From positions 1-64,000 of the forward strand of contig MTLY02000002.1 in the NCBI GenBank assembly GCA_002011035.2: a stretch of DNA of 64,000 nucleotides. The letters run 5' to 3'. The position numbers and the translations under genes were made by a program. The notes under the pieces are model-generated. The model was not told the origin of the DNA and made no database searches. It worked only from the letters and a program-made list of their open reading frames with translations. Below, in pieces: positions 38,015-60,224 of the stretch (its first letter is position 1; the number at the start of each line of letters is the position of its first letter). The DNA is from Candidatus Hecatella orcuttiae (GTDB lineage: Archaea; Thermoproteota; Bathyarchaeia; Hecatellales; Hecatellaceae).

Positions 38015-38023
38015 CGTTTCCCT

Positions 38024-40093: not shown

Positions 40094-40097
40094 ACCT

Positions 40098-41645
40098 TCA
40101 CCCTCCTATCAAAGCATGGGCGGCGCTGTCCGCCAGCTGAATTACAAGGTCAGGCCATATGCCCACCACCACGCAGGCAGCCGCCAGCAGCACGATGGGT
40201 AAAACCATGGTTCCCGGGGCTTCCCTAGCGCCCTCCGCCCTCGTCTTGGGCTTCCGAAACATCACCCTCTGCATGACCCAAAGGTAATAGGCTGCTGCGA
40301 AGACGCTGTTAACCACCACGGCGATGGTCACCCCCACCATGAAAGGGTCCTTGGCCATGTTGAAGCCTGCGAGGATGATGAACAGCTTACTCCAGAAGCC
40401 GCTGAGGGGAGGAACCCCCGCCAAAGTCAGAAGCCCAACGGAGAAAGACGCCCCAGTCCAAGGCATCTTTTTCCCTATCCCCTCCAACTCCGCTAGGTCC
40501 CTGGTCTTGGCTTCGTGGATGAAGCAACCGGAGCAGAGGAAGAGGAGGCCCTTTCCCACAGCGTGGTTGAACACGTGGAACAGCGCCCCCATGATGGCTA
40601 GGCCTGCCACCACCAAGGCGATTTCAGGGGCTGTGGAATAATAATGGGTGAGGGCGTAGGCTCCGATGCCGGCTCCGGTGAGGATGTAGCCGATGTTGAC
40701 GATGCTGGAGTAGGCCAGCAGCCTCTTGATGTCCCTCTGCAGCAGAGCCATGATGTTGGCCACGGTCATGGTGAGGATGCCGAAGAGCATCAGCACCGTT
40801 CCGAAATCGAAGACCAAAGGTGTAAAGGCCACGAACAAAACTCTGTAGATGGCGTAAACACCTACCTTGATGACTACCCCCGACAGCATGGCGCTGATGG
40901 AAGCCGGAGCAGCTGGGTGAGCGTCTGGAAGCCATGTGTGGAAGGGAACCACCGAAGCCGTCACTCCGAAGCCGCAGACGATCATAGTGACCAAAAAGAA
41001 CATGGTGAGAGTGGAAGGACCTGCTTCCTGAAGACCTTGGGCTAGGGCCTCGAAGTTGAGGGTGCCTGTTATGCCGTAGAGAAAGGACATGGCGTAGAGG
41101 AAGAGGAGGGAGCCGAAGGTGCTCATCACCAAGTATTTGAAGCTGGCTTCTATGGGCTCCCACCGGTGCTTCCGGAAGGCTACGAGGACGTAGGCGGAGA
41201 GGGACATAGTCTCCCAGAAGATGAAAAGGTTGAAGAAATCACCCGCGAAAGCCACTCCGATCATGCCAGCCACCATGGCCAAGAGCAAAGCGTAGTACTT
41301 GTCCAAGCCTGAATCCTTCTCCATGTATCGCAGAGAGTAAACAGCCACCATCAGACCCACCCCCACGTAGACGTAAGCCATGTACACGCTTAGAGAATCC
41401 ACAAAGTAGGTGACCCCGAAAGGCGGCCCGTAGGCTTCTAGGTGGTAGACAGCGAAGCCTTCCTCTGAAGCCTTGACCAAAAGGTCCAGCTTAAAAACAT
41501 AGTACAGGGTGGCGGCGAAGGCTCCTATGGAGAAAAGGTCCCTTGCCTTCTCAAACCCGACGGCTTTCCCCAACGCTGTAACAAGCGGCGTTAGAATAGC
41601 TGCGAAGAGAAGAGTCAACACAGGCATCAAGACGAGTAAAGACAC
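40098..41645 (-). CDS. nuoN: Complex I membrane subunit N (NuoN/FpoN-like)
   Basis: A 515-aa antiporter-like subunit: FIFWETMSLSAYVLVAF (Glu in helix 5), VVPFHTWLPDAHPAAPASISAMLSG (in pieces VVPFHTWLPDAHPAAP), FNHAVGKGLLFLCSG, and PLSGFWSKLFI. By position (K-N-L-M) it fills the N slot. Sequence also resembles Mrp-type subunits, so N versus M is assigned by order. Starts 4 bp after nuoK. Confidence 0.88.
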   Translation of the reverse strand: MSLLVLMPVLTLLFAAILTPLVTALGKAVGFEKARDLFSIGAFAATLYYVFKLDLLVKASEEGFAVYHLEAYGPPFGVTYFVDSLSVYMAYVYVGVGLMVAVYSLRYMEKDSGLDKYYALLLAMVAGMIGVAFAGDFFNLFIFWETMSLSAYVLVAFRKHRWEPIEASFKYLVMSTFGSLLFLYAMSFLYGITGTLNFEALAQGLQEAGPSTLTMFFLVTMIVCGFGVTASVVPFHTWLPDAHPAAPASISAMLSGVVIKVGVYAIYRVLFVAFTPLVFDFGTVLMLFGILTMTVANIMALLQRDIKRLLAYSSIVNIGYILTGAGIGAYALTHYYSTAPEIALVVAGLAIMGALFHVFNHAVGKGLLFLCSGCFIHEAKTRDLAELEGIGKKMPWTGASFSVGLLTLAGVPPLSGFWSKLFIILAGFNMAKDPFMVGVTIAVVVNSVFAAAYYLWVMQRVMFRKPKTRAEGAREAPGTMVLPIVLLAAACVVVGIWPDLVIQLADSAAHALIGG

Positions 41646-41648
41646 AGC

Positions 41649-41969
41649 TTACCACCTCAGCCTCCTCAGTCTTCTGACATCCAAGGTTGCATAATGGCGG
41701 TGGGCGTTGATGACCAGCAGCAGGGCTAAGGTAGCTATGGCCGCCGCAATGACGATGGAGACGATGACCACGCTCTGGGCTAAAGCCTCCACGGCCAGGG
41801 TGGGAGAAAGCTCCGAGCCCAAAGCCACAAAGTTCAGGTGAACAGCTGAGGTTAGAATTTCCACTCCGATGACGATTTTGATCATGTTCCTTTTCACAGC
41901 GATGCAGTAGGCTCCGAGGATGAAAAGGATGGCAGCCGCGGCCAAGTACCAACTCGTTTCTAGGCTCAT
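41649..41969 (-). CDS. nuoK: Complex I subunit K
   Basis: A 106-aa, three-helix subunit. Glu in VIGVEILTSAVHLNFVALG (helix 2) and the GAYCIAVKRNMIKI segment match NuoK. The conserved second Glu region is AQSVVIVSIVIAAAIATLAL. Forms part of the E-channel with J and A. Tail is Arg-rich. Confidence 0.92.
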   Translation of the reverse strand: MSLETSWYLAAAAILFILGAYCIAVKRNMIKIVIGVEILTSAVHLNFVALGSELSPTLAVEALAQSVVIVSIVIAAAIATLALLLVINAHRHYATLDVRRLRRLRW

Positions 41970-41972
41970 AGG

Positions 41973-42272
41973 CTATTCTTCCTCCTCTTCGGAGATTTCT
42001 TCCTCCACGCCCTCCACGAAGACCTCCTCCTCCGGACCTGCCTCTTCAGTTCTGAAGAGAGCAGCGGCTCCGACGATGGTGACAAAGACCGTCAGAAACA
42101 GGAAGAGGATGTCGAACTCCCGGTAGGTCCAAAGCCAAAGTTGCTCTGGGAGGGGAGAAGGAGGTAGGGTAGGATTGGGGATGATGAAGTAGGAGCCCAT
42201 AAAACTGGCTATGATGACGGTGAAAGCAAGTAGAACGGCTAATCCCACTATCCTACCTGCAAGCGAGTTCAT
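41973..42272 (-). CDS. nuoJ2: Complex I subunit J, C-terminal half
   Basis: A 99-aa protein with two helices (GLAVLLAFTVIIASFMG, LFLFLTVFVTIVGAAALF) and an acidic tail (about 11 Glu in the last 25 residues). It matches the second half of NuoJ, whose first half is the separate gene upstream. Split J genes also occur in methanogen Fpo operons. YREFD resembles the Mrp/Mbh linker piece. The acidic tail is unusual. Confidence 0.75.
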   Translation of the reverse strand: MNSLAGRIVGLAVLLAFTVIIASFMGSYFIIPNPTLPPSPLPEQLWLWTYREFDILFLFLTVFVTIVGAAALFRTEEAGPEEEVFVEGVEEEISEEEEE

Positions 42273-42276
42273 CTTT

Positions 42277-42519
42277 TCACAACTTCTTGACGGTGTGGAA
42301 GGTTACCAGCAACAGGACGACAACGGCTCCCACGTAGATGAGAACCTGCACAGCCGCCACGTAGGGCGCGCCCAAAAGGAAGAAAGCCACAGCCAAAAGG
42401 ATGCTCATGAAAAAGAAGGAAGCAATGGCCTTGGGTATGTTTCGGAACTCAACAGCTAGAAAAGCGCAGCCGATTGTGAGGAGGATGACGGCCATTTCAA
42501 GAAGAGCCAGCGGTTCCAA
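42277..42519 (-). CDS. nuoJ1: Complex I subunit J, N-terminal half
   Basis: An 80-aa protein with three helices from TTG 42519, preceded by GGTGTAAGA. The J signature is ALLGAPYVAAVQVLIYVGAVVVLLL in pieces (LLGAPYVAAVQVLIYVGAV). The frame also extends upstream to 42627, but that part is non-homologous and overlaps the TATA-like box. First gene of the leftward complex I operon. Confidence 0.85.
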   Translation of the reverse strand: MEPLALLEMAVILLTIGCAFLAVEFRNIPKAIASFFFMSILLAVAFFLLGAPYVAAVQVLIYVGAVVVLLLVTFHTVKKL

Positions 42520-42719
42520 TCTTACACCACAAAGCCTTCGTTTGAAATGTTTTTTATCTAAAAGGAGATGAAGATATAAATTCTTCGCTCCCTTTTTCGG
42601 GAAAATGCAGGCGTATATACAGTTCAAAAGATGTTTACTTTCAAAATTAAAGGATAAACCATAAATGCGACATTAATGTACTATTTTCTCGAGAACAAAC
42701 AAAGGAAAAGGGAAGAGCA
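42520..42719. promoter_or_regulatory. Divergent promoter region of the two complex I operons
   Basis: 200 bp between nuoJ1 and nuoA. On the leftward strand TTTATATCTT (42571-42580) is a TATA-like box ~55 nt before the TTG. Rightward, AT-rich elements such as GTATATAC (~42612) and CCATAAATG (~42659) are candidates for nuoA. The shared region could coordinate both halves. Confidence 0.5.
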
Positions 42720-43082
42720 GTGGCAGACCTTCTGGGCCTAGTGGTGTACATTGTCATCATGCTCCTGTTTCCCATAGGCCTAGTGCTGTCCGGAAAGATA
42801 TTCGGCCCGTCCAATCCCAGTCCCACCAAGAACTTGGCCTTTGAATGTGGACAGGTTCCTCTTGGAGACCCTCGGATAACCTTCAACATTCGATACTATC
42901 CTTACGCCATGATCTACGCGGTCTTCGGGGCCATAGCTATCTTTCTCCTCCTCACCGCCCCTGCCATCATCAGGTTGGGAGGCGAGGTTTCAACTTTCAT
43001 TTCCATCTCTCTCGCTGTGGTGATCCTCGCCTTGGTCAGCGCTGTGACTTCTCTCCGTTCGGCTAGGAGGAGGTTGAGGTGA
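42720..43082 (+). CDS. nuoA: Complex I subunit A
   Basis: A 120-aa, three-helix subunit. NuoA signature: NPSPTKNLAFECGQVPLGDPRITFNIRYYPYAMIYAVF in pieces (FECGQVPLGDPR, NIRYYPYAMIYAVFG); the ECG Cys lies in the loop near the quinone channel. GTG start after GGGAAGAG. nuoB overlaps its end by 4 bp. Confidence 0.93.
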   Translation: MADLLGLVVYIVIMLLFPIGLVLSGKIFGPSNPSPTKNLAFECGQVPLGDPRITFNIRYYPYAMIYAVFGAIAIFLLLTAPAIIRLGGEVSTFISISLAVVILALVSAVTSLRSARRRLR

Positions 43083-43549
43083 CCCTAAGCCCTGTGGCTA
43101 AGGCTAAGGAAACATACACCCTCCTGAAGGATAAAATCCTCAACTGGGGTCGAGCTTGGTCTCTGTGGTCTGTTCACCTTTGCACAGGCTGCTGCAGCCC
43201 TGAGCTGATGGCTGTTTCGTGTTCCCGGTTCGACGCGGAAAGGTTCGGCACTCTGCCCTTCCCTTCTTTAAGGCAGTGTGACCTTCTCTTCGTGTTGGGT
43301 GTGGTTAGCGAGAAAATGGCGAAAAGGGTTAAATTGATCTACGATCAAATGCCTGACCCGAAATATGTCATAGCCTTAGGGGACTGCGCCATCTCCGGAG
43401 GCTTGTGGTGGGACTCCTACTGCGTCGTTCAGGGGATCGATAAGGTGGTCCCTGTGGACGTCTATGTGCCGGGATGCCCCCCAAGGCCGGAAGCCTTCAT
43501 CCAAGGCATTATGATGTTGCAGAAGAAGATCCAAGGGAAAGAAGTTTGA
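43079..43549 (+). CDS. nuoB: Complex I subunit B, N2 cluster
   Basis: A 156-aa subunit holding the terminal 4Fe-4S cluster N2: TGCCSPELMAV (tandem Cys), ALGDCAISGG and YVPGCPPRPEA provide the four ligands. GTG start overlaps the nuoA stop (GTGA). It passes electrons to quinone with NuoD. Confidence 0.95.
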   Translation: MTLSPVAKAKETYTLLKDKILNWGRAWSLWSVHLCTGCCSPELMAVSCSRFDAERFGTLPFPSLRQCDLLFVLGVVSEKMAKRVKLIYDQMPDPKYVIALGDCAISGGLWWDSYCVVQGIDKVVPVDVYVPGCPPRPEAFIQGIMMLQKKIQGKEV

Positions 43550-44025
43550 GCGAGGCTGCTGAAAAAGCTGAAGCCATGGTTACTGAGGATGTTAAATCTA
43601 AATTTGGTGATGCTGTTCTCCAAGCTGAAGTCCAGCGGAAAGGCAGAATAAGCATAAAAGTCAATAAAGACCGCCTAGCAGATGTCGCCAGATACCTGAA
43701 GGATAGCTACAACTTTGACCATCTGGCCTCTGTTTCCGGAACCGACTACCCTGACCGGAAGGAGTTCGAAGTCGTCTACCATGTCTGGTCCATTCCCCGG
43801 AAGATTCTGGCAGCCTTAAGAGTTTCCCTGCCCAGAGAAGACCCTCAACTGGACACGCTTATCCCTGTTTGGGAAGCTGCCAATCTTCATGAGAGGGAAA
43901 CCCATGAAATGTTGGGGATAAACTTCGCCGGTCACCCCAACCTTTCCGGGCTATTGCTTCCGGAGGACTGGAAGCAGATGCCTCCCCTGAGAAAAGACTT
44001 CAAACTACCGTCCAAGCCGAGGTAG
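43546..44025 (+). CDS. nuoC: Complex I subunit C
   Basis: A 159-aa subunit from TTG 43546, which overlaps the nuoB TGA (TTGA). 30-kDa subunit motif: WEAANLHERETHEMLGINFAGHPNLSGLLLPEDW (in pieces ANLHERETHEMLGI, FAGHPNLSGLLLPEDW). Preceded by GVSGTDY-like SGTDYPDRKEF. Hydrophilic partner of NuoD. Confidence 0.93.
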   Translation: MSEAAEKAEAMVTEDVKSKFGDAVLQAEVQRKGRISIKVNKDRLADVARYLKDSYNFDHLASVSGTDYPDRKEFEVVYHVWSIPRKILAALRVSLPREDPQLDTLIPVWEAANLHERETHEMLGINFAGHPNLSGLLLPEDWKQMPPLRKDFKLPSKPR

Positions 44026-44035
44026 GTGTGGCTCT

Positions 44036-45115
44036 ATGCCTGTCATGCGTGTGAAATTCGGTCCTCAGCACCCTATCAGCGGCCACCTTTGCCTTGCCCT
44101 TGACGTTGACGGGGATGTTGTGGTCAACATTGAGCCTGACATCGGTTACACGCATCGGGGATTGGAGAAGATAGCTGAAAACCGCAACTACGTTCAAGCG
44201 GTTCCCCCATTGGAGAGAGCTAACATCGTTGACTCGGTCCACATGGTTTTAGGCTATGTGGAGGCGGTGGAGGAGCTCATGGGGGTGGAGGTGCCGGAGA
44301 GGGCGAAGTTCATCCGGGTCATCATGGCTGAGATGAGCAGAATAGCCAGCCACCTCTACTGGCTTTGTTTGATGGCGGTGGCTGTGGGTTTGGAAACAAT
44401 GCTCATGTGGCCCATTAACGACAGGGAACTGCTCCTAGACCTCTTCGAGATGTATACGGGGGCGAGGATAACTCACTCTTTCTTCATCCCCGGAGGGGTT
44501 CGGCGGGACCTTCCTCAAGGCTTTAAAGAGCAAACCTTCAGAGCGCTGAGCTATCTGGAGCAACGGCTGGGCGATTATGACCGAATGCTTTACCAAAGCT
44601 ACACTTTCAAAATAAGGACCCAAGGAGTTGGGAAGCTTAAACCTCAAGAAGCCATAAAGCTGGGGTTGGTTGGCCCTTCTATCAGAGGGTCGGGGGTGAA
44701 GGTGGATGTGCGAAAAGATGAACCTTATGCTGCGTATGACCAGCTGGAGTTCACCGTGCCCACGGGGAAGGTGGGAGACTCCTACGACAGGTCTGTGGTG
44801 AGGCTTAGGGAAATGGAGCAGAGCATCTCCCTCATCCGCCAAGCGCTGGAGAGGCTTCCCAGCGGGCCCATTAAGGCTCCTGCCCCTTCCTCCGCTCCGA
44901 AAGGGGAAACTTATAGCAGAGTGGAGTCGGCTCGGGGGGAGTTGGGCTACTATCTGGTGGGGGACGGAACCACCCGGCCTTACCGTTTGAAGATAAGCAG
45001 TCCCTCTTTTAGAAACCTCCCTGCCATGGGTTATCTATCTAAAAATGTCCCCTTCGCGGACATACCCGTTATACTGTGGAGTCTAGACCTCTGGCCGTTG
45101 GACATGGATAGGTGA
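44036..45115 (+). CDS. nuoD: Complex I subunit D
   Basis: A 359-aa 49-kDa-type subunit related to NiFe hydrogenase large subunits but without the NiFe Cys. Motifs: FGPQHPISGH, IGYTHRGLEKIAENRNYVQ (His/Tyr of the quinone site region), MAEMSRIASHLYWL and ESARGELGYYLVGDG. The end WSLDLWPLDMDR matches the family. ATG start. Confidence 0.95.
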   Translation: MPVMRVKFGPQHPISGHLCLALDVDGDVVVNIEPDIGYTHRGLEKIAENRNYVQAVPPLERANIVDSVHMVLGYVEAVEELMGVEVPERAKFIRVIMAEMSRIASHLYWLCLMAVAVGLETMLMWPINDRELLLDLFEMYTGARITHSFFIPGGVRRDLPQGFKEQTFRALSYLEQRLGDYDRMLYQSYTFKIRTQGVGKLKPQEAIKLGLVGPSIRGSGVKVDVRKDEPYAAYDQLEFTVPTGKVGDSYDRSVVRLREMEQSISLIRQALERLPSGPIKAPAPSSAPKGETYSRVESARGELGYYLVGDGTTRPYRLKISSPSFRNLPAMGYLSKNVPFADIPVILWSLDLWPLDMDR

Positions 45116-45121
45116 AAAAGC

Positions 45122-46207
45122 TTGGTGGGGTTGGAGTCTCTGACGTTGCAGCTGTGGCAGCTCTGGCAGAGCGGCTACCTGACGGAGCTCTTCATCAAAG
45201 TCATCATCTTCCCAGGCTTAGTCCACATATCCCTTGTCGTGCTACTGGCTGTGTGGTTTGAGAGAAAAGTAAACGCGAGAATCCATCTTCGAGTAGGACC
45301 CTACCATGTAGGCCCGGTGATGGGCTTTTTCCAGCCTATCGCCGACTTCGTTAAACTGATAGGAAAGGAGCTCATCGTCCCTGAGAAAGCTCATAAGCTC
45401 CTTTACAAGACGGCGCCCATCTCCGCTCTAGCTCTTTCCACGTTGAGCTTCGCTTTCATTCCCTTCGGGGTCATCGGCTCGGAGATGAGTTTACCGTTCA
45501 TTCCCTTCCACCTAAGCCCCGGAGAATACTGGGTTGTCTACTACTCGAACATCAGCCTCCTCATCGTCATCCTGCTCTTCAGCGTGCGCCCTTTCATCAT
45601 CATAGCAGCCGGCTGGGCATGCCGGAGTAAATACTGCACCGTAGGCGCCCTTCGTACAGCTTTTCAGCTTCTCGCCTATGAAGTTCCCCTTCTAGTGGCC
45701 ATCGTCGGCGTCGTCATGGTGGCCGGGTCCTTCGACCTTGTGGCCATAATAGAAAGCCAGTCCTCCATTTGGCATGGAGTCTTTCAGCCTCTCGGCCTCG
45801 CTGTCTTCTTCGTCGCCATGATGGCGGAAGTGTCCCGGAGACCCTTCGACCTACCCCACGCTGAACAGGAATTGGTCTACGGCTGGGCTACGGAGTATCC
45901 CGGCGTCCTCTACGGATGCTTCATGATGGCGGAATACGTTGACCTGTATCTGGGGGCGGTGCTGATGACAGCTCTTTTCTTGGGAGGATGGCTAGGCCCA
46001 GCTTTCCTGCCGCCCATCGCGTGGTTTCTGCTGAAGGCTGGGATCATCGTCTGCATCGTCACCCTCCTCCGAGGAGTGTTCCCCCGGGTGAGAATAGACC
46101 AGCTTCTGGACGCAGGTTGGACGTATCTGATACCTCTGGCTCTTATCCAGGTGCTGATCATCCTAGGCCTCGCTCATGTGGCACCAGGCCTGCTGGGTTT
46201 GGCGTAA
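45122..46207 (+). CDS. nuoH: Complex I subunit H
   Basis: A 361-aa, ~8-helix subunit forming the quinone chamber base. Motifs: WFERKVNARIHLRVGPYHVGP, ADFVKLIGKE, and the acidic loop MAEVSRRPFDLPHAEQELV with EYPG. TTG 45122 follows AGGTGA within the end of nuoD; GTG 45125 is equally possible. Confidence 0.95.
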   Translation: MVGLESLTLQLWQLWQSGYLTELFIKVIIFPGLVHISLVVLLAVWFERKVNARIHLRVGPYHVGPVMGFFQPIADFVKLIGKELIVPEKAHKLLYKTAPISALALSTLSFAFIPFGVIGSEMSLPFIPFHLSPGEYWVVYYSNISLLIVILLFSVRPFIIIAAGWACRSKYCTVGALRTAFQLLAYEVPLLVAIVGVVMVAGSFDLVAIIESQSSIWHGVFQPLGLAVFFVAMMAEVSRRPFDLPHAEQELVYGWATEYPGVLYGCFMMAEYVDLYLGAVLMTALFLGGWLGPAFLPPIAWFLLKAGIIVCIVTLLRGVFPRVRIDQLLDAGWTYLIPLALIQVLIILGLAHVAPGLLGLA

Positions 46208-46233
46208 AATGGAAAAAGTAAGGTGAAAAGAAA

Positions 46234-46680
46234 ATGTCTTCCATCGTAAAGCCGTTGAAAGTTGTGCTGGAACATTTCCCAAAAAGAACCTTTACGGTCT
46301 TTCATCCCTATGAAGCTCTAAAGCTACCGGAAAGGTCTCGTGGCGGCATCCAGCTGGACATGGAAAAGTGCACTGGCTGCGGTGTATGCGCCTACATCTG
46401 CCCTAATGTAGCCATAGAACTGGTCACCAGAGGAGAGAAGAGATACCCCAAACTGGATTATGGAAGATGCTGCTTCTGCGCTCTTTGTGTGGACTACTGC
46501 CCTAGGAAGGCGCTGAAAACCACACCGGTACATGAGCTGGCGGAGTTCAGCAGAGCGGAGCTGGAATATCCCCCTGAACGCCTCGCTCAACCTCCGCAGA
46601 TAACCAAACCTAAGCCCGCCCCTCGCCGAAAAATTGTTTCCATAAAAAAGATCGACCAAAGGGGAGTTTCACACCACTAA
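46234..46680 (+). CDS. nuoI: Complex I subunit I, two 4Fe-4S clusters
   Basis: A 148-aa ferredoxin-like subunit: CTGCGVCAYICPNV and CCFCALCVDYCPRKAL carry the 8 cluster Cys (N6a/N6b). A C-terminal Pro/Lys-rich tail follows. Last gene of ABCDHI; no NuoEFG or FpoF/O-like gene follows, so the electron-input module is encoded elsewhere or is a soluble donor. Confidence 0.95.
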   Translation: MSSIVKPLKVVLEHFPKRTFTVFHPYEALKLPERSRGGIQLDMEKCTGCGVCAYICPNVAIELVTRGEKRYPKLDYGRCCFCALCVDYCPRKALKTTPVHELAEFSRAELEYPPERLAQPPQITKPKPAPRRKIVSIKKIDQRGVSHH

Positions 46681-50978: not shown

Positions 50979-51083
50979 TTATATCACCTATACATCTTTC
51001 CAAGGTACTCACATCTTCCTAAAATTTAAACCTACCTAATTGGGGATCCCTAGGTTAAACTTCGCAGCGAAAAGGGGAACATC

Positions 51084-51710
51084 TTGACAGCCTCCAGCCG
51101 ACCGGTAGTGGGCATCGACCTTGCGGGAGTGGAAACCAGACCCACAGGCTTCTGCACCTTAGACCAAAACCTCAGAGCGAAAACCCTCCTCCTCTGGAAG
51201 GATGAAGAAATAGTCAGCCATGTTGCAAAGTTGAAACCCCGCCTCGTCGCCGTGGACGCTCCCCTAGGGCTGCCCAAGGGGAGATGCTGCCTCAGGGACG
51301 ACTGCCCCTGCCGCTCCGCAGGCCATCTGAGAGAATGCGACCGGGAGCTTCTTCGAATGGGATTGAAGCTTTTCCCTCCCACCTTGGGGGCCATGAGGAA
51401 GCTGACTCTCCGAGCTGTGGCCCTCAGAAAAATCCTTGAGCGGGGACGCTTTCAGGTGGTGGAGGCTTTTCCCCACGCCGCCAAAGCCCTCTTGGGGTTT
51501 CCTGAAAAAAGGGAGGGAGCTGAAAAGTTGAGGGAGGCCCTCAAAAAATTCGGCGTGAAGGGGGAGCTTCGTAGGAAGCGAAACATAACCATCCACGAGC
51601 TGGACGCTGTGGTTTCAGCCTTGGTTGGAAGACTCTGGCTGGAGGGTGAGGCTCAAGCCGTAGGAAAACCGGAAGAAGGCTTGATAATAATTCCGAAGAA
51701 GCCCCAGTAG
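51084..51710 (+). CDS. DUF429 family protein (RNase H-like fold)
   Basis: A 208-aa protein with VVGIDLAGVETRPTG at the N-terminus (acidic first strand), VAVDAPLGLPKG and, near the C-terminus, HELDAVVSALVG with Asp; this acidic set suggests an RNase H-like nuclease fold. A CCLRDDCPCRSAGHLRECDREL Cys cluster (in pieces CCLRDDCPC, ECDREL) may bind zinc. Function unproven. TTG start after GGGGAACATC. Confidence 0.8.
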   Translation: MTASSRPVVGIDLAGVETRPTGFCTLDQNLRAKTLLLWKDEEIVSHVAKLKPRLVAVDAPLGLPKGRCCLRDDCPCRSAGHLRECDRELLRMGLKLFPPTLGAMRKLTLRAVALRKILERGRFQVVEAFPHAAKALLGFPEKREGAEKLREALKKFGVKGELRRKRNITIHELDAVVSALVGRLWLEGEAQAVGKPEEGLIIIPKKPQ

Positions 51711-51879
51711 GCTGCGGCCAAAGAGCCGCGGTTTGCAGAAGCCGTGGATCCAAGTTAATGTGCAAGGTTTTTATCAGGCAGCTTTCTTCTTCAACTTCAG
51801 GGGCTGTGAAGACTCTAGCCCAACTGAGCTGAAGCCGTGATGTGGATCTTGAGTGCAGAGCCCCTAGTTTTCAGCACTT

Positions 51880-53295
51880 TTAGGATAAGGTTCTCCGAAG
51901 GCTGTGAATGGCCCTCTTCTGGCAGTCTAAAACAGCCTCTTTGAAGGCTTCTGACAGGGTTGGGTGGGGGATCACGGTGCGGGCGACGTCTTCCACGGTA
52001 GCCTCCAAGCTGACCGCTGTTATGGCCCCTGAAATCAGCTCCGAAGCATGAGGGCCTAAGATGTGAACGCCTAAAAGCTCCCCGGACTCGGCTTCCGCAA
52101 CGACCTTAACAAAGCCCTCAGCCGCCTCTAAGGTTACGGCCCTCCCGTTGGCGGCGAAGGGAAACCTACCTACCTCCACGCGGTGCCCTCGCTCCCTCGC
52201 TTGCTCTTCCGTGAGGCCTACGGCGGCGACTTCGGGGGAGGTGAACACACACCGGGGAATTGTTTCCCTTCGAAGGATGGAATTGCCCCCCAGCGCATTC
52301 TCTGCAGCCACCAGTCCCCCTGCATAGGCTTCATGGGCGAACTGCCCTCCGGCTACGTCTCCCACCGCAAACACTCGGGGAACGTTGGTTTCCATCCTCT
52401 GATTTACAGGTATGCCTTTCCTCCCAAAGGATACCCCCGCGTTTTCAAGCCCTAAATTTTCAACGTTGGGAACCCGGCCTGTTGCGAGGAGGACCTTTTC
52501 AGCTTCCACCTCCTTCACACCCTCTTTCGACGTTAAAGCCACTTTTTTCCCTTCGGGGGAGCTGGAAATCCGCTTAACCTCCACGCCCACCGAAACCTCA
52601 ACTCCCCTACGGCGTAGCAGCTGCTCCAAGCGGGAGCCTATTTCACCGTCTTCCGCCGGTAAAAGGCGGGACATCATCTCCACAAGCCTCACCTCCGTTC
52701 CCAGCCCTGAAAACAGGGAGGCGAACTCGCATCCCACAGCGCCGCCCCCCATGATAAGCAGACTATGGGGGGCATTTTCTAATGCCAAGGCTTCATCGCT
52801 GGTTAGGACATCTTTCCAGTCGGCTCCCGGTATGGGCGGCTTCAGAGGCTTGGAGCCCGTGGCGATGATGATACTTTCAGCCTCCAACTCGAGCATCCCT
52901 TCGCCCTTTTCCACCACCCTAACCTTCCGAGGGCTGGTTAAGGCGGCGGAGCCACGGATGAGTTGGACCCCGTTTTTCTCAAGAAGATACTCCACGTAGC
53001 CTACCATCCGGTTTACAATTTCCTCTTTGCGTTTCATCAACCCCTTGAAATCCAAAGCTACACCTTGGACGGCCACGCCGAATTTATGGCAGCTTTTGAT
53101 TTCGGAAAGCAGCTCCACCGACTTCAACAAAGTTTTAGTGGGAATACATCCTACGTTCGTGCATACGCCTCCAACCCTGTCTTTTTCCACAACAGCCACC
53201 TTACCTCCCAGCTGAGAGGCCCTGATGGCCGCAGTGTAACCTCCCGGCCCGCCTCCCAAGACCAAAACATCCAACCGGCCTAAACCTGCCACCAT
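51880..53295 (-). CDS. lpdA: Dihydrolipoyl dehydrogenase
   Basis: A 471-aa pyridine-nucleotide-disulfide oxidoreductase. FAD loop LGGGPGGYTAA, redox disulfide Cys45-Cys50 (GGVCTNVGCIP), NAD loop IMGGGAVGCEFAS, FAD-ribityl VFAVGDVAGG and C-terminal catalytic VIPHPTLSE. It oxidises lipoyl domains of 2-oxoacid dehydrogenases or the glycine cleavage system; no partner is in the window. Confidence 0.95.
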   Translation of the reverse strand: MVAGLGRLDVLVLGGGPGGYTAAIRASQLGGKVAVVEKDRVGGVCTNVGCIPTKTLLKSVELLSEIKSCHKFGVAVQGVALDFKGLMKRKEEIVNRMVGYVEYLLEKNGVQLIRGSAALTSPRKVRVVEKGEGMLELEAESIIIATGSKPLKPPIPGADWKDVLTSDEALALENAPHSLLIMGGGAVGCEFASLFSGLGTEVRLVEMMSRLLPAEDGEIGSRLEQLLRRRGVEVSVGVEVKRISSSPEGKKVALTSKEGVKEVEAEKVLLATGRVPNVENLGLENAGVSFGRKGIPVNQRMETNVPRVFAVGDVAGGQFAHEAYAGGLVAAENALGGNSILRRETIPRCVFTSPEVAAVGLTEEQARERGHRVEVGRFPFAANGRAVTLEAAEGFVKVVAEAESGELLGVHILGPHASELISGAITAVSLEATVEDVARTVIPHPTLSEAFKEAVLDCQKRAIHSLRRTLS

Positions 53296-53408
53296 GAACG
53301 CTCAACCCCTGCTGTTAAAACGAAACTTTTTCTTCAACCTCTGTAAAAAATCCTTCCATCCTGCTGGGCGAGCAGCACATCAACCTTATAGGGCCTTGTT
53401 TCCGATGG

Positions 53409-54284
53409 TTGAAGTTGAGGGGCTGCAGCCTAATGGGGGAGACAGGAACCTACAAGGCTAAGCTTCAACATCTGCTTTTCCCCTTGTTAACCCTCTCCAT
53501 GGCGATGGCTTTCGCCGCCCTTCTCTCGGCTGCTTATACTTCGCCGCCTCTGAACCCTCTGCCTTTTGAAGGCGGCCTCTCCGCCTCTGCTTACAATGCT
53601 CTGTACTACGCAGCCTTGATAGCGGGGATGGGGCTGGTCTTCTACCTTCTCACCAAGGCCGGTATGAGAAAAATTTTGAAGACTCTCATCCTCGGAGTCT
53701 ACGCCCTCCTAGTTTTCGCTCTTGCCTCCATATATTCTGCTGCAGGCTTCTGGATAGCCGGTTTGAGTCCACCTTTCAGCTCCTACCTTGGGGGGTTAGG
53801 CTCGGTGGCAGTTGTTTTTCTGGCCCTCTACGCTGTTTTCGTCAGGGGCGGAGTCTGGAGGTCCATCGTCATGTTTCTGGTGGCCGCAGGTTTAGGGGCT
53901 CTCCTAGGCTTTACCATTCCAAGCCTCAGCGTCTACGCCATTCTCATCGCTCTCTCCGTCTACGATGTTTTCGCCGTGTTCAAGGGGCCTCTGGGGAGAA
54001 TGCCTTGGACGGCGGAGCCAGAGGTTTTCACAGGTCTCATTCTCACCCACGACAATTTGAAAATAGGGCTGGGGGACCTAGCCTTCTACTCTATGCTGGC
54101 ATCCCACATCTACCTTCTCCAAGGCTTTTACCCCTTCCTAGCGGCTTCCTTGGGGATACTTCTAGGCGTCTATCTTTCCCTCAAACTTTTGGAGCGGAGA
54201 AGCATGGTTCCGGGACTGCCTTTAGCCGTCGGCCTAGGGATAATCTTCACCCAGCTCCTCAACTTTCTCCAACCCCTTATTTGA
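53409..54284 (+). CDS. Presenilin/signal-peptide-peptidase-like intramembrane aspartyl protease
   Basis: A 291-aa protein with about nine helices. Catalytic motifs: YD in LSVYDVFAVFKG near residue 185, GLGD in NLKIGLGDLAFY near 220, and the PAL-type motif as VPGLPLAVG near 265. This is the archaeal PSH arrangement. It would cleave membrane peptides; substrate unknown. Likely start ATG or GTG near 53409; the first helix begins about residue 20. Confidence 0.9.
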   Translation: MKLRGCSLMGETGTYKAKLQHLLFPLLTLSMAMAFAALLSAAYTSPPLNPLPFEGGLSASAYNALYYAALIAGMGLVFYLLTKAGMRKILKTLILGVYALLVFALASIYSAAGFWIAGLSPPFSSYLGGLGSVAVVFLALYAVFVRGGVWRSIVMFLVAAGLGALLGFTIPSLSVYAILIALSVYDVFAVFKGPLGRMPWTAEPEVFTGLILTHDNLKIGLGDLAFYSMLASHIYLLQGFYPFLAASLGILLGVYLSLKLLERRSMVPGLPLAVGLGIIFTQLLNFLQPLI

Positions 54285-54403
54285 AAATCCATCAGTTTAA
54301 GGGACTGGGGGAAAAGCTTCCTGTTCCTAAGTGATATGGACGGACTGCGCTAGGCTACTAGAAAAATATCAGAATATTGATAACATGCTGCACGCATAGT
54401 AAA

Positions 54404-54416
54404 TTATAAATATATA
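54404..54416 (+). promoter_or_regulatory. TATA box of the heme-copper operon, with upstream inverted repeat
   Basis: ATAAATATATAT-like sequence (54404-54416) ends ~32 nt before ATG 54448. Upstream, TATCA...TGATA (54367-54382) forms an imperfect inverted repeat that could bind a regulator. Inference from position. Confidence 0.45.
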
Positions 54417-54447
54417 TTCCAAAATAATATAACTAGCGTGATAAATA

Positions 54448-54555
54448 ATGACCGTACATCAAATCATAGACGTAGTATATATTCTGTACGCGGTAGGCGT
54501 AGCGACATTTATGCTTCTCTATGTTCGCAAAATCACGCAGAAAGGAGGGGGGTAA
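54448..54555 (+). CDS. Small single-helix protein, candidate heme-copper oxidase subunit
   Basis: A 35-aa protein: short N-terminus (MTVHQ), one membrane helix (IIDVVYILYAVGVATFMLLYV), basic end (RKITQKGGG). It lies just 4 bp before the subunit II gene. ba3-type oxidases carry a similar tiny subunit (CbaD, ~34 aa), so this is a plausible counterpart; sequence identity cannot be judged at this length. Confidence 0.6.
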   Translation: MTVHQIIDVVYILYAVGVATFMLLYVRKITQKGGG

Positions 54556-54559
54556 AAAG

Positions 54560-54982
54560 GTGGAGAAAGCGGAAAAAAGATGGCTGGTCATCTTAGTTGC
54601 CGTAGCAGTGGTCTTTAACGCTACAACGCTTTCTCCTCTAGTCCCTTGGCAAAACTGGCTTTTCTGGTCTCCGCCTACTCCAGTGGAAGAATTCCATATA
54701 AGGATGAAAAATTACACTTTCCAACTTCCCCCGGATGGGATAACAGTCCAAGTAGGTGAGCCTGTTAGGTTTATCGTGACGTCGGAGGATGTAACCTATG
54801 GTTTCGGAGTCTTCAGAGAGGATGGGAGCATCGTCTTCCAGATGCAGGTGCTCCCCGGGTATCGCAATTCGATCCTGTGGGTGTTCGATGAACCCGGCGA
54901 CTACACCATCCGTTCCACGGAGTACTCCGGCCCATACCATCCCCACATGGTCTTACCGAATGCCATTCGCGTGGTGGAGTGA
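54560..54982 (+). CDS. Heme-copper oxidase/NO reductase subunit II lacking CuA ligands
   Basis: A 140-aa ba3-type subunit II from GTG 54560, which follows GGAGGGGGG. One N-terminal helix, then a cupredoxin domain. The CuA site is lost: the first His is Tyr80 (SEDVTYGF), and the two bridging Cys are Ser119 and Ser123 (RSTEYSGPYHPHM), while His127 and Met130 remain. Without CuA it should take electrons from quinol rather than cytochrome c or a blue-copper protein. Confidence 0.88.
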   Translation: MEKAEKRWLVILVAVAVVFNATTLSPLVPWQNWLFWSPPTPVEEFHIRMKNYTFQLPPDGITVQVGEPVRFIVTSEDVTYGFGVFREDGSIVFQMQVLPGYRNSILWVFDEPGDYTIRSTEYSGPYHPHMVLPNAIRVVE

Positions 54983-54997
54983 GGTGGAGGCTTTCCC

Positions 54998-56587
54998 ATG
55001 ACCTATGAAAGGCTTACTCTGCGTTATGCGATAATCTCAACACTGTTCCTAGGCCTAGCTGGCATTGAAGGTTTGCTGATGAGGGTGCAACTGGTGAACA
55101 TTCCGTTGTTCGACTTCGAACACTACTACGCCATGCTGACCGTTCACCCGTTTGTGGGAATCTACGGATGGGCTTACTTGGGGGTGATAGGCGCCTTTTA
55201 CTATCTCGTCCCTAAACTCCTTAACAAACCCCTCTACAGCCTCAAGCTGGCCGACGTGAACCTGTGGACCTTCGTCGCAGGAGTGCTCATCGTTTGGTCT
55301 TCCGGGCTTCTCACCAAGTTCGGCTCCCTCTACACCCTCTACTGGCCGCTGCCTGTGGAGAGGTTCCCTCCCAACAGCGTAGTCTTTTTCTCCTCAGGCC
55401 TACTGCTCATAGAACTGTCGGTGTTGCTGTTCATCTTCAACATCTTCGCCACCGTTTTCAGCAGAAAAGGGGAGAGTTCGGGGAAAACCTTCAAAAGTCT
55501 TCTCTTATCCGCCTTCGGGCTTGAGGGTTTGTCCCAACGGTTCAGCATGGCCCTCAGCAAGTTGGGAGTAAAGTCTTCCAAGCGTATGTTGAACGGAGGC
55601 AGCGGCTCCAATCCTCAACCCATGCCTGTGTTTGTTGTGGCGGTGATGCGGGGAAGCGTCGACGCTGTTCTCAACGCGCTGGTTCTAGCTGGGGCAGGAG
55701 GCTTGCTGTTGGCTTTCAGCCTGCCGGCGCTTTTAGCCGGTGTGATGCTAAACCCTCTCATCGTCGACCCACTAGTCTACAAGAACGTGTTCTGGTGGGG
55801 TTTGGATATGATTGCCGACGGCGATGTTTTGATATGGGTGGCTGGAGCCTTGTATCTTCTCGCTCCTTTACTCACAAACCGGAAACTTTACGCTGAAGAT
55901 GTGGTGAGGAAGGTTATCCTAGCAGACCTTCTCATCTCCATGGGCGTGTGGAGCCACCATCTGATGTCCGACCTTCCCCAGCCTTCGTTTATGAGGCTGA
56001 TCTCAGGGCAGTTCATAACTTGGGGTGAGTTCTTCACCATGGGGCTGACGTTTTTCGCCGTCCTGATGACCGTCTGGCTGGCTCGGCCGGTTAAGCTAAC
56101 TATGCCTCTGAAATTCATGCTGGGGGGTATTTTCGGCTTCATGCTTGGAGGAGGTTCAGGGCTGCTTCAAGCCAACTACGCTTTGAACCTAGTCATGCAC
56201 AACACCCAGTGGGTTCCCGGATTCCACATTCACCAGATGGTGCTGGTGGGGTTAGGCGGCGTCATCTTCGCTGTCATCTACGCTCTTCTGCCCATGTTGA
56301 CAGGCACTGAGTTGAAGAGTCAGAAGCTGAGCAACCTTCACTTCTGGCTTTGGATGATCGGAGGCGTAGGTATGGCCTTTTCCATGGGGCTGGCGTGGAC
56401 GCCGGGTATGCTGAGGAGAACCCTCTACCCTGACACTACCATCTACCTGCCCTATATGAGCTCAGCCATGTTCTTTGGAATACTGCTCGCCATCGGATTC
56501 CTAGCCTTCATCATAAACCTCGTCCATACCTACGGGCTGCGAACACTGGTAGGACTCTTCATACCTCAGAGGAAAACCAAACCCTAA
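54998..56587 (+). CDS. Heme-copper oxidoreductase subunit I, NO-reductase-like (His to Asp active site)
   Basis: A 529-aa catalytic subunit, ba3-related, ~13 helices. Low-spin heme ligand His50 (LTVHPFVG) and one of the His in GFHIHQM (410/412), with HNTQW around 401. Metal-B ligands: His320-His321 (VWSHHLM) are kept. At the third ligand, where oxidases read FWWTGHPIVY, this protein reads FWWGLDMIAD, so His is Asp270 and the cross-linked Tyr is Asp274. Loss of that Tyr argues against O2 reduction. An extra ~55-residue loop (155-210) follows helix 4. A NO reductase of the gNOR type is the best inference. Confidence 0.85.
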   Translation: MTYERLTLRYAIISTLFLGLAGIEGLLMRVQLVNIPLFDFEHYYAMLTVHPFVGIYGWAYLGVIGAFYYLVPKLLNKPLYSLKLADVNLWTFVAGVLIVWSSGLLTKFGSLYTLYWPLPVERFPPNSVVFFSSGLLLIELSVLLFIFNIFATVFSRKGESSGKTFKSLLLSAFGLEGLSQRFSMALSKLGVKSSKRMLNGGSGSNPQPMPVFVVAVMRGSVDAVLNALVLAGAGGLLLAFSLPALLAGVMLNPLIVDPLVYKNVFWWGLDMIADGDVLIWVAGALYLLAPLLTNRKLYAEDVVRKVILADLLISMGVWSHHLMSDLPQPSFMRLISGQFITWGEFFTMGLTFFAVLMTVWLARPVKLTMPLKFMLGGIFGFMLGGGSGLLQANYALNLVMHNTQWVPGFHIHQMVLVGLGGVIFAVIYALLPMLTGTELKSQKLSNLHFWLWMIGGVGMAFSMGLAWTPGMLRRTLYPDTTIYLPYMSSAMFFGILLAIGFLAFIINLVHTYGLRTLVGLFIPQRKTKP

Positions 56588-56708
56588 ACCGGCCGGACAT
56601 CCCTAAATAGGCGAGCTTTTTTTCATGCCGCTGAAGACTGGAGGAGAATATCTAAAAATCCGGAGAGAGTTAAATCTAAGAGCGAGTAATAGTAGAAATC
56701 TGAACGGC

Positions 56709-56783
56709 GCGGCCGTGGTCTAGCCTGGCCTAGGACAGGGGCCCCCCAAGCCCCTAACCCGGGTTCGAATCCCGGCGGCCGCA
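56709..56783 (+). tRNA. tRNA-Gly (anticodon CCC), CCA not encoded
   Basis: 75 nt. Acceptor GCGGCCG/CGGCCGC, D arm GGTC...GGAC, anticodon stem GGGGC/GCCCC with loop CCCCCAA, T arm CCGGG-TTCGAAT-CCCGG, discriminator A. The loop reads anticodon CCC but has C at position 33 instead of the near-universal U. Confidence 0.9.
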
Positions 56784-56967
56784 TTCAGCTACCCCGTTTA
56801 CGGACTTCGTCTATCCTTTTGATCCATCAGCCTTTGCAGGCTTGCAAAATGCGAGAAGGGGAAAAATGGATTTTGAGTTAATTCTTTGAGCATCTCCTGC
56901 CGGTCTTTTTGACTGCAAATACGCATAAAGCGGAAATTTTAACCAGCAACATAAGAAGGTTTATTAG

Positions 56968-57089
56968 TGCTCCGGGCGGGATTCGAACCCGCGACCTCCG
57001 GCTCGAAAGGCCGGAATACTTGACCGGGATTTACCAGCCTGGCGCAGGAAAACCCCGCACCGTTTGAGGGCTGCCTATACTACCGGAGC
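56968..57089 (-). tRNA. tRNA-Glu (anticodon TTC) with a D-loop intron
   Basis: 122 nt. Acceptor GCTCCGG/CCGGAGC, anticodon stem CCGGC/GCCGG with loop CTTTCGA (TTC), T arm GCGGG-TTCGAAT-CCCGC, discriminator A, no CCA. The D arm is split: TAGTATAG, then ~46 nt (about 57029-57074), then CCCGGTCAAGTATT. The insert folds as CAGCC/GGCTG with an inner GGTGCGGG/CCTGCGCC hairpin, consistent with an intron in the D loop. Confidence 0.88.
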
Positions 57090-57162
57090 TCCCTTGTCTG
57101 AGCGTGGCTTCGACCTTCTAGGTTTGGAAAGCTAGACGCGGGAAGGGTTTAAAAGACTTTCT

Positions 57163-57318
57163 TCAGAAAGACCTACTTCTCAGCCACCGGCAGCGGTGGC
57201 ATTGCTGGCAGTTTCCGCGGCAGGTTTTGAGGTTTGAGTTTTTAAAAACTAGACGGCCGTCTATGAGTTCCACGTTGAAATATCTCTGTAAGCTGCAGTC
57301 TTCTTTCAAGTTTCGCAT
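57163..57318 (-). CDS. Mini zinc-finger-like protein (51 aa)
   Basis: ATG 57318 to TGA 57163. The 51-aa basic product has RYFNVELIDGRLVFKNSN and then TCRGNCQQCHRCRW, a CX3CX2CX2C cluster suited to Zn or an Fe-S site. It fills the gap between tRNA-Glu and purN; TAAAATAC about 35 nt upstream could be its TATA element. The Cys spacing in so short a frame makes chance less likely. No family recognised. Confidence 0.5.
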   Translation of the reverse strand: MRNLKEDCSLQRYFNVELIDGRLVFKNSNLKTCRGNCQQCHRCRWLRSRSF

Positions 57319-57464
57319 GAATAATTCTACAAAACGGATGGGTGGCGGAGTATTTTAGGGTTCCCTTTATCGTCTTAAATTCAGATAGGGGCCCCATAAA
57401 ATATTAAAGTGAAAAGGACTAACTCTGCATCATCCTCAACGGTTAAACCTCAGGATGACCCACC

Positions 57465-58217
57465 ATGGGCGGCTGCAATCTGGCGGTTTTGGCTTCAGGC
57501 GAAGGAACAAATTTCCAAGCCATAGCCGACCATGTGGCGGCAGGGGTTCTTCGAAACGTGAACCTGAGGGTTCTGGTTTACAACCGCCCTGAGGCGAAGG
57601 TGAAGGATAGGGCGGAAAAATGCCAGGTGCCTAGCGAGTTTGTTTCCCACGCAGGTAAGGACAGGGGAGAGTTTGACGAAGAAGTCATAGACACTCTGAA
57701 CAGGTATGGCGTCGACCTCATTGCCTTAGCCGGCTGGGACAGGATACTTGGAGCGGAGTTCATTGAGAAATACCGGTGGAAGATATTGAACATCCACCCA
57801 TCCCTACTCCCTTTCGCCGGGGGTAAAGGCATGTACGGCCGAAAAGTCCACAAAGCCGTCTTAGAGTCAGGAGTGAAGGTCACAGGACCCACGGTTCACT
57901 ACGTTGACATAGCCGTAGACCGAGGGCCGATAATCGACCAGTATCCGGTACACATCGGCGACATCTACGGACTACCCATAGCTTGGGAGGACAAGATCAC
58001 CCTTCTCGCGGAAAGGGTGCTTCTCTACGAGCATAGGCTGTATTCTAGGGTGATCCAGCTGCAGGCGGATGGAAGAATAAAAATTGAAACCGAAAAAGTG
58101 GAGAGGGAAGGCATGACTTGGGAGCTGACCATCGCAGTCCCAGATTACAGCGGAAACTGGCTTAAAGAATGGAATGAGAGGCAGAGAAAGTTTCTAGCCC
58201 TTCAAAACGAAAAATAG
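57465..58217 (+). CDS. purN: Phosphoribosylglycinamide formyltransferase
   Basis: A 250-aa enzyme transferring formyl from 10-formyl-THF to GAR in purine synthesis. Motifs: VLASGEGTNFQAI, catalytic Asn-His (ILNIHPSLLPF), GPTVHYVDIAVDRGPIIDQ in pieces (Asp of the DRGPII motif). Longer than bacterial PurN (~210 aa) by a C-terminal extension of ~45 residues. folD follows 28 bp later, supplying the folate cofactor. Confidence 0.93.
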   Translation: MGGCNLAVLASGEGTNFQAIADHVAAGVLRNVNLRVLVYNRPEAKVKDRAEKCQVPSEFVSHAGKDRGEFDEEVIDTLNRYGVDLIALAGWDRILGAEFIEKYRWKILNIHPSLLPFAGGKGMYGRKVHKAVLESGVKVTGPTVHYVDIAVDRGPIIDQYPVHIGDIYGLPIAWEDKITLLAERVLLYEHRLYSRVIQLQADGRIKIETEKVEREGMTWELTIAVPDYSGNWLKEWNERQRKFLALQNEK

Positions 58218-58244
58218 GAAGGTGCTGAAGCCATCGCAGTCCTA

Positions 58245-59153
58245 ATGCACGCTGAACCGATTTTCAAGAAAATCAAGGAAGAAGTTAGAAGGGAACTGGC
58301 AGCCTTCAAAGAAGAGGGAATAACTCCCGGCTTGGCCGCCATCATAGCCACCGATAACCCTCCAGAGCTCCTCACGGCTAAAAAATACGTGGCCCTGAAA
58401 GAAGCTGACTGCAGAGAAGTTGGAATCTATTTCGAAGCCCATGAAATATGCGGGTATTCTCCTGAGGACAGGGAAAAAGCTTTGCTAGGCTTGATCGAGA
58501 AGCTCAATTTAAGAGACGACATCACCGGCATACTGGTTCAAATGCCTCTCCCAGGGTTTATCAACAGAGAGAGACTTCTTGAAAAAATAAACCCGATGAA
58601 GGACGTCGACGGGCTGACCCCCTACAACAAGGGTCGAATGCTGAGCTCCTACAGCTTGGAAGAGGATCTTCTCCCCTGCACGGCGGTGGGCATCGTGCAG
58701 CTGCTGGAGTATTACAGAATAAACCCAGCTGGGAAAGACGCTGTGATCGTGGGAAGAAGCGACCTAGTCGGACGGCCTCTGCGCATCCTACTTGAAGACA
58801 GGGATGCGACAGTAACATGCCTCCACCGGAAAACCAAAAACAAGTACGAGAAAGTAGCGGAGGGAGACCTCGTCGTTTCAGCCGTAGGGCGGCCTCCTGA
58901 ACTTTACAGGGAAGACTCCTTCAGGCTTACGGCGGAGCTGATAAAGGACGGCGCTGTCATTGTGGGAGTGGGAGGGAAAAGAGACCCCGCCACCGGCAAG
59001 ATGTACTTCGACGTGGATGTGGAAAGCGTGTCTGAAAAGGCATCGTACGTCACGCCCAACATCGGAGGCGTAGGCTTGATGACTCGGGCGAGGCTGCTGA
59101 AAAACCTGATTAGTGCAACAAGGCGGCTGGCGGAACAAGTGAAGCCCTACTGA
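58245..59153 (+). CDS. folD: Methylene-THF dehydrogenase/methenyl-THF cyclohydrolase
   Basis: A 302-aa bifunctional enzyme interconverting methylene-, methenyl- and 10-formyl-THF. Catalytic Tyr-x3-Lys as KKYVALK, GILVQMPLPG, MKDVDGLTP, PCTAVGIVQLLEYY, VIVGRSDLVGRP (NAD(P)) and GGVGLMTRARLL. It uses tetrahydrofolate-type cofactor here together with PurN, which suggests real folate use rather than only methanopterin. Confidence 0.94.
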   Translation: MHAEPIFKKIKEEVRRELAAFKEEGITPGLAAIIATDNPPELLTAKKYVALKEADCREVGIYFEAHEICGYSPEDREKALLGLIEKLNLRDDITGILVQMPLPGFINRERLLEKINPMKDVDGLTPYNKGRMLSSYSLEEDLLPCTAVGIVQLLEYYRINPAGKDAVIVGRSDLVGRPLRILLEDRDATVTCLHRKTKNKYEKVAEGDLVVSAVGRPPELYREDSFRLTAELIKDGAVIVGVGGKRDPATGKMYFDVDVESVSEKASYVTPNIGGVGLMTRARLLKNLISATRRLAEQVKPY

Positions 59154-59180
59154 ATTTCAGTCCTTTCCAAAGGGGGAAGC

Positions 59181-60224
59181 TTGGTGAAAATCAGGTTCAC
59201 GAGGATTGTTAGAAAAGCCAAGATTCTGACCGGTTCTAACAGTGTGGAGGAATACCGCCTAGAACACAGAGTCGACCCCCTAACCGGCCGCTTGTCCACC
59301 GTCTGCCCGGGAATAAAGGAAAAAAGGGGATTGTTCTTCGGAAAACCGGATTGGACCTTAGTCAAGACCTTGGCAGAAGAAAGCAAGGCCTCTTGCCCCT
59401 TCTGCCCCGAGAACCTTCAAAGCGCAACAGCGAGATTCTACAATCTGAAGAAAAAAAGGCTAAGGTTTGGGAAAGCCTGGGCTTTTCCGAACCTCTATCC
59501 TCGAGCTGAATTCGAGGCAGTGGCAGTCTTAACTCCCCGCCACTTTCTTGGCCTAAACCAGTTTACCCCTCGGGTTCTCTACGAGGGCTTGAGAGTACTC
59601 CTGGAATGCGCTTGGGAAGCTTGGGAATCTAAGCCTCGTTTAAAATACGCCTGCATTGGGGGTAACTATCTTTTTCCAGCCGGAGCCAGCCTTTTACACC
59701 CCCATTTTCAGCTTATCATGCGGGATCTTCAGTTTAACTATGTAAAGGAACTTTCCCGCTGCAGTGAAGCCTACCATAGGGAACAGGGGGAAAATTATTG
59801 GGAAGCATTGGTGAAGCAGGAGAAGTCCCGGGGAGAAAGGTTCGTTGGCTACGTGAACGGAACCTACTGGTTAACTCCTTTTGCCCCCCAAGGAATGGAT
59901 GAGGTTCAGGCGGTGGTTTTGGGGAAATCTCACCTCTTAGAGCTTGATGCCTGCATTCTGAAAGGTTTAGCCTCAGGCCTCTCAAAAGTGCTGAAATACT
60001 ACGACGAAACAGGACTCTCAAGCTTCAATATAGCTCTCTACTCGGAGGCCTTGGGTGTGAAAACAGAGCATTTCACCTGCCTTTTGAGGGTGATTTCAAG
60101 ACCCAACATGCGGGAGAACTACACCAACTTCGACGGCTGGTACGCCCAGAAGCTGCTGGATGAAACAGTACTCGTGGATTCACCGGAATCTCGAGCGGCA
60201 GATCTTCGAAAACTTTTCCCATAA
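59181..60224 (+). CDS. Galactose-1-phosphate uridylyltransferase-like HIT protein
   Basis: A 347-aa HIT-superfamily nucleotidyltransferase. Zinc pair CPFCPEN near residue 72, AFPNLYPRAEFEAVAVLTPRH in pieces, and catalytic HPHFQL near 173. Overall GalT-like (two HIT halves), though GalT's classical HPHxQ is kept with Phe in the middle. It probably transfers a nucleotide to a sugar-phosphate. 27 bp after folD. Confidence 0.85.
   Translation: MVKIRFTRIVRKAKILTGSNSVEEYRLEHRVDPLTGRLSTVCPGIKEKRGLFFGKPDWTLVKTLAEESKASCPFCPENLQSATARFYNLKKKRLRFGKAWAFPNLYPRAEFEAVAVLTPRHFLGLNQFTPRVLYEGLRVLLECAWEAWESKPRLKYACIGGNYLFPAGASLLHPHFQLIMRDLQFNYVKELSRCSEAYHREQGENYWEALVKQEKSRGERFVGYVNGTYWLTPFAPQGMDEVQAVVLGKSHLLELDACILKGLASGLSKVLKYYDETGLSSFNIALYSEALGVKTEHFTCLLRVISRPNMRENYTNFDGWYAQKLLDETVLVDSPESRAADLRKLFP

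Follow-up and report, generated by a model that had tools for sequence, protein, structure and literature searches.

The operon and its host

The DNA analysed here, called the window throughout, is the 64,000-nt stretch at positions 1–64,000 of contig MTLY02000002.1 (GCA_002011035.2, Candidatus Hecatella orcuttiae). At 54448–56587 on the plus strand, the strand of all operon features given below, it holds an operon encoding haem-copper superfamily (HCO) subunits in the gene order II-I. The NorH-like subunit II (54521–54982, with a probable start at GTG 54560) is a cupredoxin without CuA ligands, recognized by the COX2 model PF00116 (E 7e-4) and by similarity to ba3 subunit II (E ~2e-8), as well as in alignments. 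The NorG-like subunit I (54998–56587, 529 aa) matches PF00115 with an E-value of 1.9e-62. A TATA-box-like sequence, TTATAAAT (54404–54411, plus strand), read in the sequence ~37 nt 5' of the first ATG, is a candidate archaeal promoter, a role that its position suits; a scan for bacterial-type (sigma-70) promoters and terminators returned chance numbers only.

Genes for tRNA-Gly and then tRNA-Glu follow on the 3' side. The tRNA-Gly just 3' of the operon prompted a search for a genomic island, and no direct repeats of at least 18 bases were found in 51000–60000; the codon composition of the operon is ordinary and resembles that of neighbouring genes. The 5' half of the tRNA-Glu gene (56967–57100, minus strand) seems to extend past the ARAGORN match, which suggests an intron-containing tRNA. 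Outside the operon, a complex I cluster (NuoL/M/N-like, B, C, D, H and I; 36491–46680) would be a candidate quinone reductase. NuoB, C, D, H and L/M/N are recognized by Pfam, and a NuoI-like ORF (46234–46680) by sequence; the cluster thus ends ~7.8 kb upstream, in agreement with the ~8 kb given in the earlier note.

That the host is an archaeon follows from an SSU rRNA gene on the same 481-kb contig, for which the best Rfam family is archaeal. This 16S rRNA gene (G000:C2:464353–466521) is 2169 nt long where the model has 1478 positions, which points to ~690 nt of inserted sequence or introns. Another contig begins with a further SSU gene, this one partial (C3:4–640). The genome amounts to 1.75 Mb at 97% completeness. 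Some families of the same phylum carry several oxidases per 2–3-Mb genome, as in Sulfolobales, which fits Thermoproteota as the probable phylum.

The active site of subunit I

Against Thermus thermophilus ba3 oxidase, subunit I aligns ungapped through FWW, and FWWGLDMIAD then lies over FWWTGHPIVY. This alignment agrees with the earlier reading that D270 (55805–55807) replaces the third metal-B (CuB) His, and D274 (55817–55819) the catalytic Tyr. The remaining ligands, also claimed to be retained, are all present: H50 (55145–55147), a low-spin haem ligand invariant in all aligned HCOs; H320-H321 (55955–55960), ligands of metal B; and H410 and H412 (56225–56233), ligands of the high-spin and low-spin haem, respectively, the last four placed by the ba3 and HCO alignments. 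An alternative alignment of helix 6 that would restore His and Tyr was looked for and none is possible, since residues 256–290 of subunit I are devoid of His.

An enzyme of the gNOR type is expected to have no proton channel. At the positions concerned, the ba3 alignment pairs Tyr244 with Ala282 and Tyr248 with Tyr286, and it places a new glutamate, E344 (56027–56029), in helix VIII near the K-channel residue Ser309, a Ser/Thr position. This Glu is gNOR-specific, occurring in 15/15 family members and in fewer than 3% of sequences elsewhere. An AlphaFold model of subunit I (pLDDT 81, pTM 0.86), which was built without cofactors and so speaks to the fold and not to the metal site, has the HCO subunit I fold, and its top 50 PDB matches are all HCO subunit I chains.

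In the published compilation, oxygen reductases have Y at the active-site position, cNOR and qNOR E, sNOR N, eNOR Q and CuANor (= bNOR) Asn, and the gNOR residue is D, with Sulfurimonas, Sulfurovum and Persephonella as examples (PMC8756737 Table A4). The window subunit I lacks the HPxVY motif with its cross-linked His-Tyr that marks B-type oxygen reductases, and it lacks the sNOR combination of a retained His with Asn at the Tyr position. In place of the Gln of eNOR it has D274, and in place of the Glu and three metal-B His of cNOR and qNOR it has D274 and D270.

A family with two aspartates

Two close bacterial relatives, a Myxococcales MAG (45% identity) and a Sulfurimonas MAG (L003, 42%), both read FWWGLDLIADG. 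A profile made from these two and the window sequence was run on 398 genomes of the same phylum, and the gene was found in 13 further genomes from five families: 11 of 44 in one class, and 2 of 81 in another. The nearest relative (G320) shares 62% identity in subunit I; in the sets searched, no other genome from the family or class to which the window belongs was found to have the gene, nor was any further bacterial gNOR found on viral contigs or plasmids.

Beyond the window, 14 relatives are full-length (12 archaeal, 2 bacterial), and D270 and D274 are present in 15/15 sequences including the window. Among the 90 non-gNOR sequences in the same alignment, His270 is kept in every one and position 274 is Asn in 73 and Tyr in 17, a distribution that excludes chance or sequencing error as the origin of D270/D274. 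Also specific to the family are E24, H42, R218, D222, R304 and E344, together with one extra residue in helix VI.

In a subunit I tree covering gNOR-like proteins, sNOR-type proteins (HMxxN) and oxygen reductases, with no eNOR or bNOR sequences, the 15 members form one clade (99/100) apart from the other two groups, with the window sister to L105/G320 (95/96); because some end branches are long, the tree gives no order between groups. Grouping inside the oxygen reductases, which had been named as grounds against the assignment, is therefore not what the phylogeny gives. A representative of a published gNOR genus falls in the window's clade, namely the Sulfurimonas sp. sequence (L003), which comes from a MAG and not from a named isolate.

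The earlier note linked a described His-to-Asp change with gNOR, and replacement of the third metal-B His by Asp is likewise treated here as a gNOR feature. The gNOR Asp itself stands, but the D in the published table fills the column in which oxygen reductases have Y (PMC8756737), and so corresponds most naturally to D274; D270, judged from the alignments, is an additional conserved feature beyond the published Asp. Published accounts also describe gNOR in Methylomirabilis (PMC6094997) and as norGH, quinone-oxidizing and non-electrogenic (PMC8906906), and count it as a proposed rather than a characterized NOR (PMC11388526). The two subunits and the CuA loss expected of norGH are both present in the window operon. 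With the Asp site, the shared clade with a Sulfurimonas relative and the archaeal 16S gene on the contig, the earlier proposal of a gNOR-type enzyme in an archaeon is borne out: by its sequence, the window enzyme is an archaeal member of the known, still uncharacterized gNOR family, and as such it is likely to reduce NO.

Subunit II, CuA loss and a split frame

In subunit II, a Tyr codon (54797–54799) replaces the first CuA His, and SerThrGluTyrSer (54914–54928) replaces the CuA Cys-x3-Cys, as seen in alignments with ba3 and with the relatives. The claimed loss of both Cys and the first His is accordingly confirmed: counted from ATG 54521 these are Ser132, Ser136 and Tyr93, and Ser119, Ser123 and Tyr80 in the earlier numbering are the identical residues counted from GTG 54560. 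The second CuA His and the Met are retained. The same three changes, His to Tyr and twice Cys to Ser, are common to 15/15 CuA-less members.

Subunit II is not encoded in one continuous frame. The upstream 35-aa ORF MTVHQIIDVVYILYAVGVATFMLLYVRKITQKGGG (54448–54555) corresponds to the N-terminal transmembrane helix of subunit II, matching the N-terminus of the fused protein in L105 and other relatives; it is no separate subunit there, being fused to subunit II in every intact relative. From this fusion it follows that the window has a split frame; the change of frame falls at a six-G run (54547–54552), which is also part of a GGAGG ribosome-binding-site-like sequence before GTG 54560. Given GGAGG and GTG at the break, the gene may be split yet translationally coupled; the split frame is equally consistent with a true frameshift or with an error in the length of the homopolymer.

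Neighbours and genomes of the relatives

Regulators of the HTH_10 (bacterioopsin-activator) type adjoin the gNOR genes at five archaeal loci from two classes (L119, L121, L122, L123 and L127); none adjoins the operon in the window. NarO, the haloarchaeal denitrification regulator, is of this type, as is the product of a gene within the nirK/nor cluster of H. mediterranei (PMC11218638). Of the two bacterial operons, one (L002) is close to a gene for an Rrf2 regulator, and the other (L003) has an MFS transporter upstream. These regulators and the transporter would be compatible with a nitrogen-oxide role. The HTH_10 proteins share a conserved C-x2-C pair and are possible NO- or redox-sensing regulators. 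Directly 3' of both bacterial gNOR operons lie genes (L002:6533–7174 and L003:9739–10338) whose products have no Pfam match and are 27% identical to each other.

Cytochrome b is found in most of the relatives' genomes and bd oxidase in several. Some archaeal gNOR genomes (G250, G334, G218 and G320) encode NirK-like multicopper proteins that score below the curated cut-off (L128–L131); these could be divergent nitrite reductases. One archaeal member, in G413, differs from the others: its D/D subunit I (L107, locus L121) is accompanied by a subunit II (L121:1713–2288) with all CuA ligands (VTHGFG, CTEYCGFRHSEM). L107 falls among the CuA-less members in the subunit I tree, and a tree of subunit II has too little support to separate retention of CuA from its regain; parallel loss in the 15 CuA-less members, regain or recombination are candidate histories. 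The same genome encodes a 589-aa protein (L136:820–2589, plus strand) in which a cytochrome d1 propeller (200–583), closest among solved structures to 6rtd and also to NirF and NirS, is joined to a CuA-type cupredoxin (82–179) where a c-type haem domain would be usual. This pairing suggests a cupredoxin-type donor for both the CuA gNOR and the CuA-d1 fusion of G413, and the electron donor may have changed within the gNOR family.

Electron donor and proposed mechanism

Subunit I of the window is the single HCO of its genome, and in that genome, 97% complete, no match was found to cytochrome b/bc, to cytochrome bd oxidase, or to NirS and NirK. Four UbiA-family prenyltransferases are present, compared with 2–3 in family members. 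MqnA is absent; as relatives that do have cytochrome b lack it too, it is uninformative as a marker of quinone synthesis. The quinol donor inferred in the earlier note is strengthened by the missing cytochrome b/bc, and on the other side of the balance stands the absence of MqnA. With neither a bc complex nor CuA, quinol would be the plausible donor.

In the mechanism that we propose, reduced quinone, from complex I or another quinone reductase, would pass electrons straight into the low-spin haem (H50/H412), from which they would travel to the high-spin haem (H410) and on to a non-haem metal bound by H320, H321 and D270, with D274 nearby. This metal would probably be iron and not copper, iron being favoured by a two-His/carboxylate site, and two NO would be converted at the binuclear site to N2O and water. 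With no match to NirK or NirS, no NO source of the cell's own was found, and NO would be supplied from outside. Since the cross-linked Tyr is missing and the search of the genome gave no further terminal reductase, the enzyme would serve either to detoxify NO or to use NO from outside as an acceptor of electrons. We infer, correspondingly, a chain running from complex I through quinol to gNOR, or else a role in detoxifying NO. Taken as a whole, the reading of the operon as a gNOR-type (NorGH) NO reductase of a Thermoproteota-like archaeon, fed by quinol and reducing NO to N2O for detoxification or with outside NO as acceptor, has a high probability in our estimation. A wider proposal is more tentative, and we would sooner doubt than endorse it in full: that gNOR is an established family in several Thermoproteota-like archaeal classes, with a donor switch between CuA in L107 and quinol in the rest, and that the window represents an NO-respiring archaeon without an oxygen reductase, its chain having the quinol-gNOR pair as sole terminal reductase.

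Weighing other readings

The operon might instead encode an oxygen reductase, a B-type enzyme that has diverged to an unusual metal site, takes electrons from quinol and acts on O2 or on both O2 and NO. Its fold and best solved matches are indeed those of oxygen reductases, subunit II is ba3-like, and as the single HCO of the genome, which has no bd oxidase, it could be the only sink for O2. We nevertheless consider this unlikely, with the catalytic Tyr and one metal-B His missing throughout the 15-member family, the clade separate from the oxygen reductases, and the family co-occurring in several relatives with bd and other oxidases, so that it need not be the O2 enzyme of those organisms. 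The operon might also encode an HCO processing NO toward some other main product or role, for example an NO dismutase or a membrane NO/redox sensor; a two-His/two-Asp site unlike that of any characterized NOR, and the missing NO-forming enzyme in the window genome, lend themselves to such a view. Known NO dismutases, on the other hand, are qNOR-like, and the genomes of some family members hold nitrite-reductase-like genes, which makes this reading highly improbable.

The remaining alternative concerns the window genome itself, in which the operon might be decaying, the frameshifted subunit II leaving the enzyme unmade or inactive. The split at the six-G run, at a place where every intact relative has a single frame, is what such decay would look like. 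Subunit I, however, is intact, has all the family residues and is 62% identical to its G320 counterpart; the codon composition is like that of the neighbours; re-initiation at the break would work with GGAGG and GTG there; and a homopolymer error in the assembly is the simplest alternative. In Thermus ba3, moreover, subunit IIa is naturally separate. Decay is thus quite improbable, and an NO reductase of the gNOR type remains our preferred reading.

Significance

NO reductases are a main biological source of N2O, and the product proposed here is a greenhouse gas. So far gNOR is known as a predicted enzyme, and the papers cited here name bacteria as its carriers (PMC8756737, PMC6094997, PMC8906906). 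Its presence in 14 archaeal genomes of one phylum, among them one that has no other terminal oxidase and another in which the CuA site is intact, offers candidates for a first biochemical test, as well as what may be a natural series leading from an oxygen reductase scaffold to a quinol-driven NO reductase. Annotation with COX1/COX2 models would label such genes as cytochrome c oxidase, and archaea carrying them would then wrongly be called aerobes.

Comparison with known systems

Among known systems the window operon is closest to gNOR/NorGH, with which it shares the active-site Asp, the B-type-like scaffold, a subunit II without CuA, the order II-I and a clade that includes a Sulfurimonas member; it differs in its archaeal host, its split subunit II frame and its identity of 42–46% to the bacterial members found. 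With ba3 (B-type) oxygen reductase, for example 1EHK, it has in common the fold, the haem ligands, the HH pair and a cupredoxin subunit II, but HPIVY has become DMIAD, CuA is lost, helix VI has gained one residue, Tyr244 is replaced by Ala282, and the two fall in separate clades. The sNOR-type proteins (L005–L080), NO reductase candidates from the same superfamily at 22–36% identity, have His270 and Asn274 and form a clade of their own (100/99). Both eNOR and bNOR share the kinship to B-type oxygen reductases (PMC11388526), whereas their active-site residue is Gln or Asn, respectively, and not Asp (PMC8756737 Table A4). Finally, cNOR and qNOR likewise place a carboxylate at the Tyr position beside the non-haem metal, yet theirs is Glu rather than Asp, their third His is kept, and they are related to the C-type oxygen reductases (PMC11388526).
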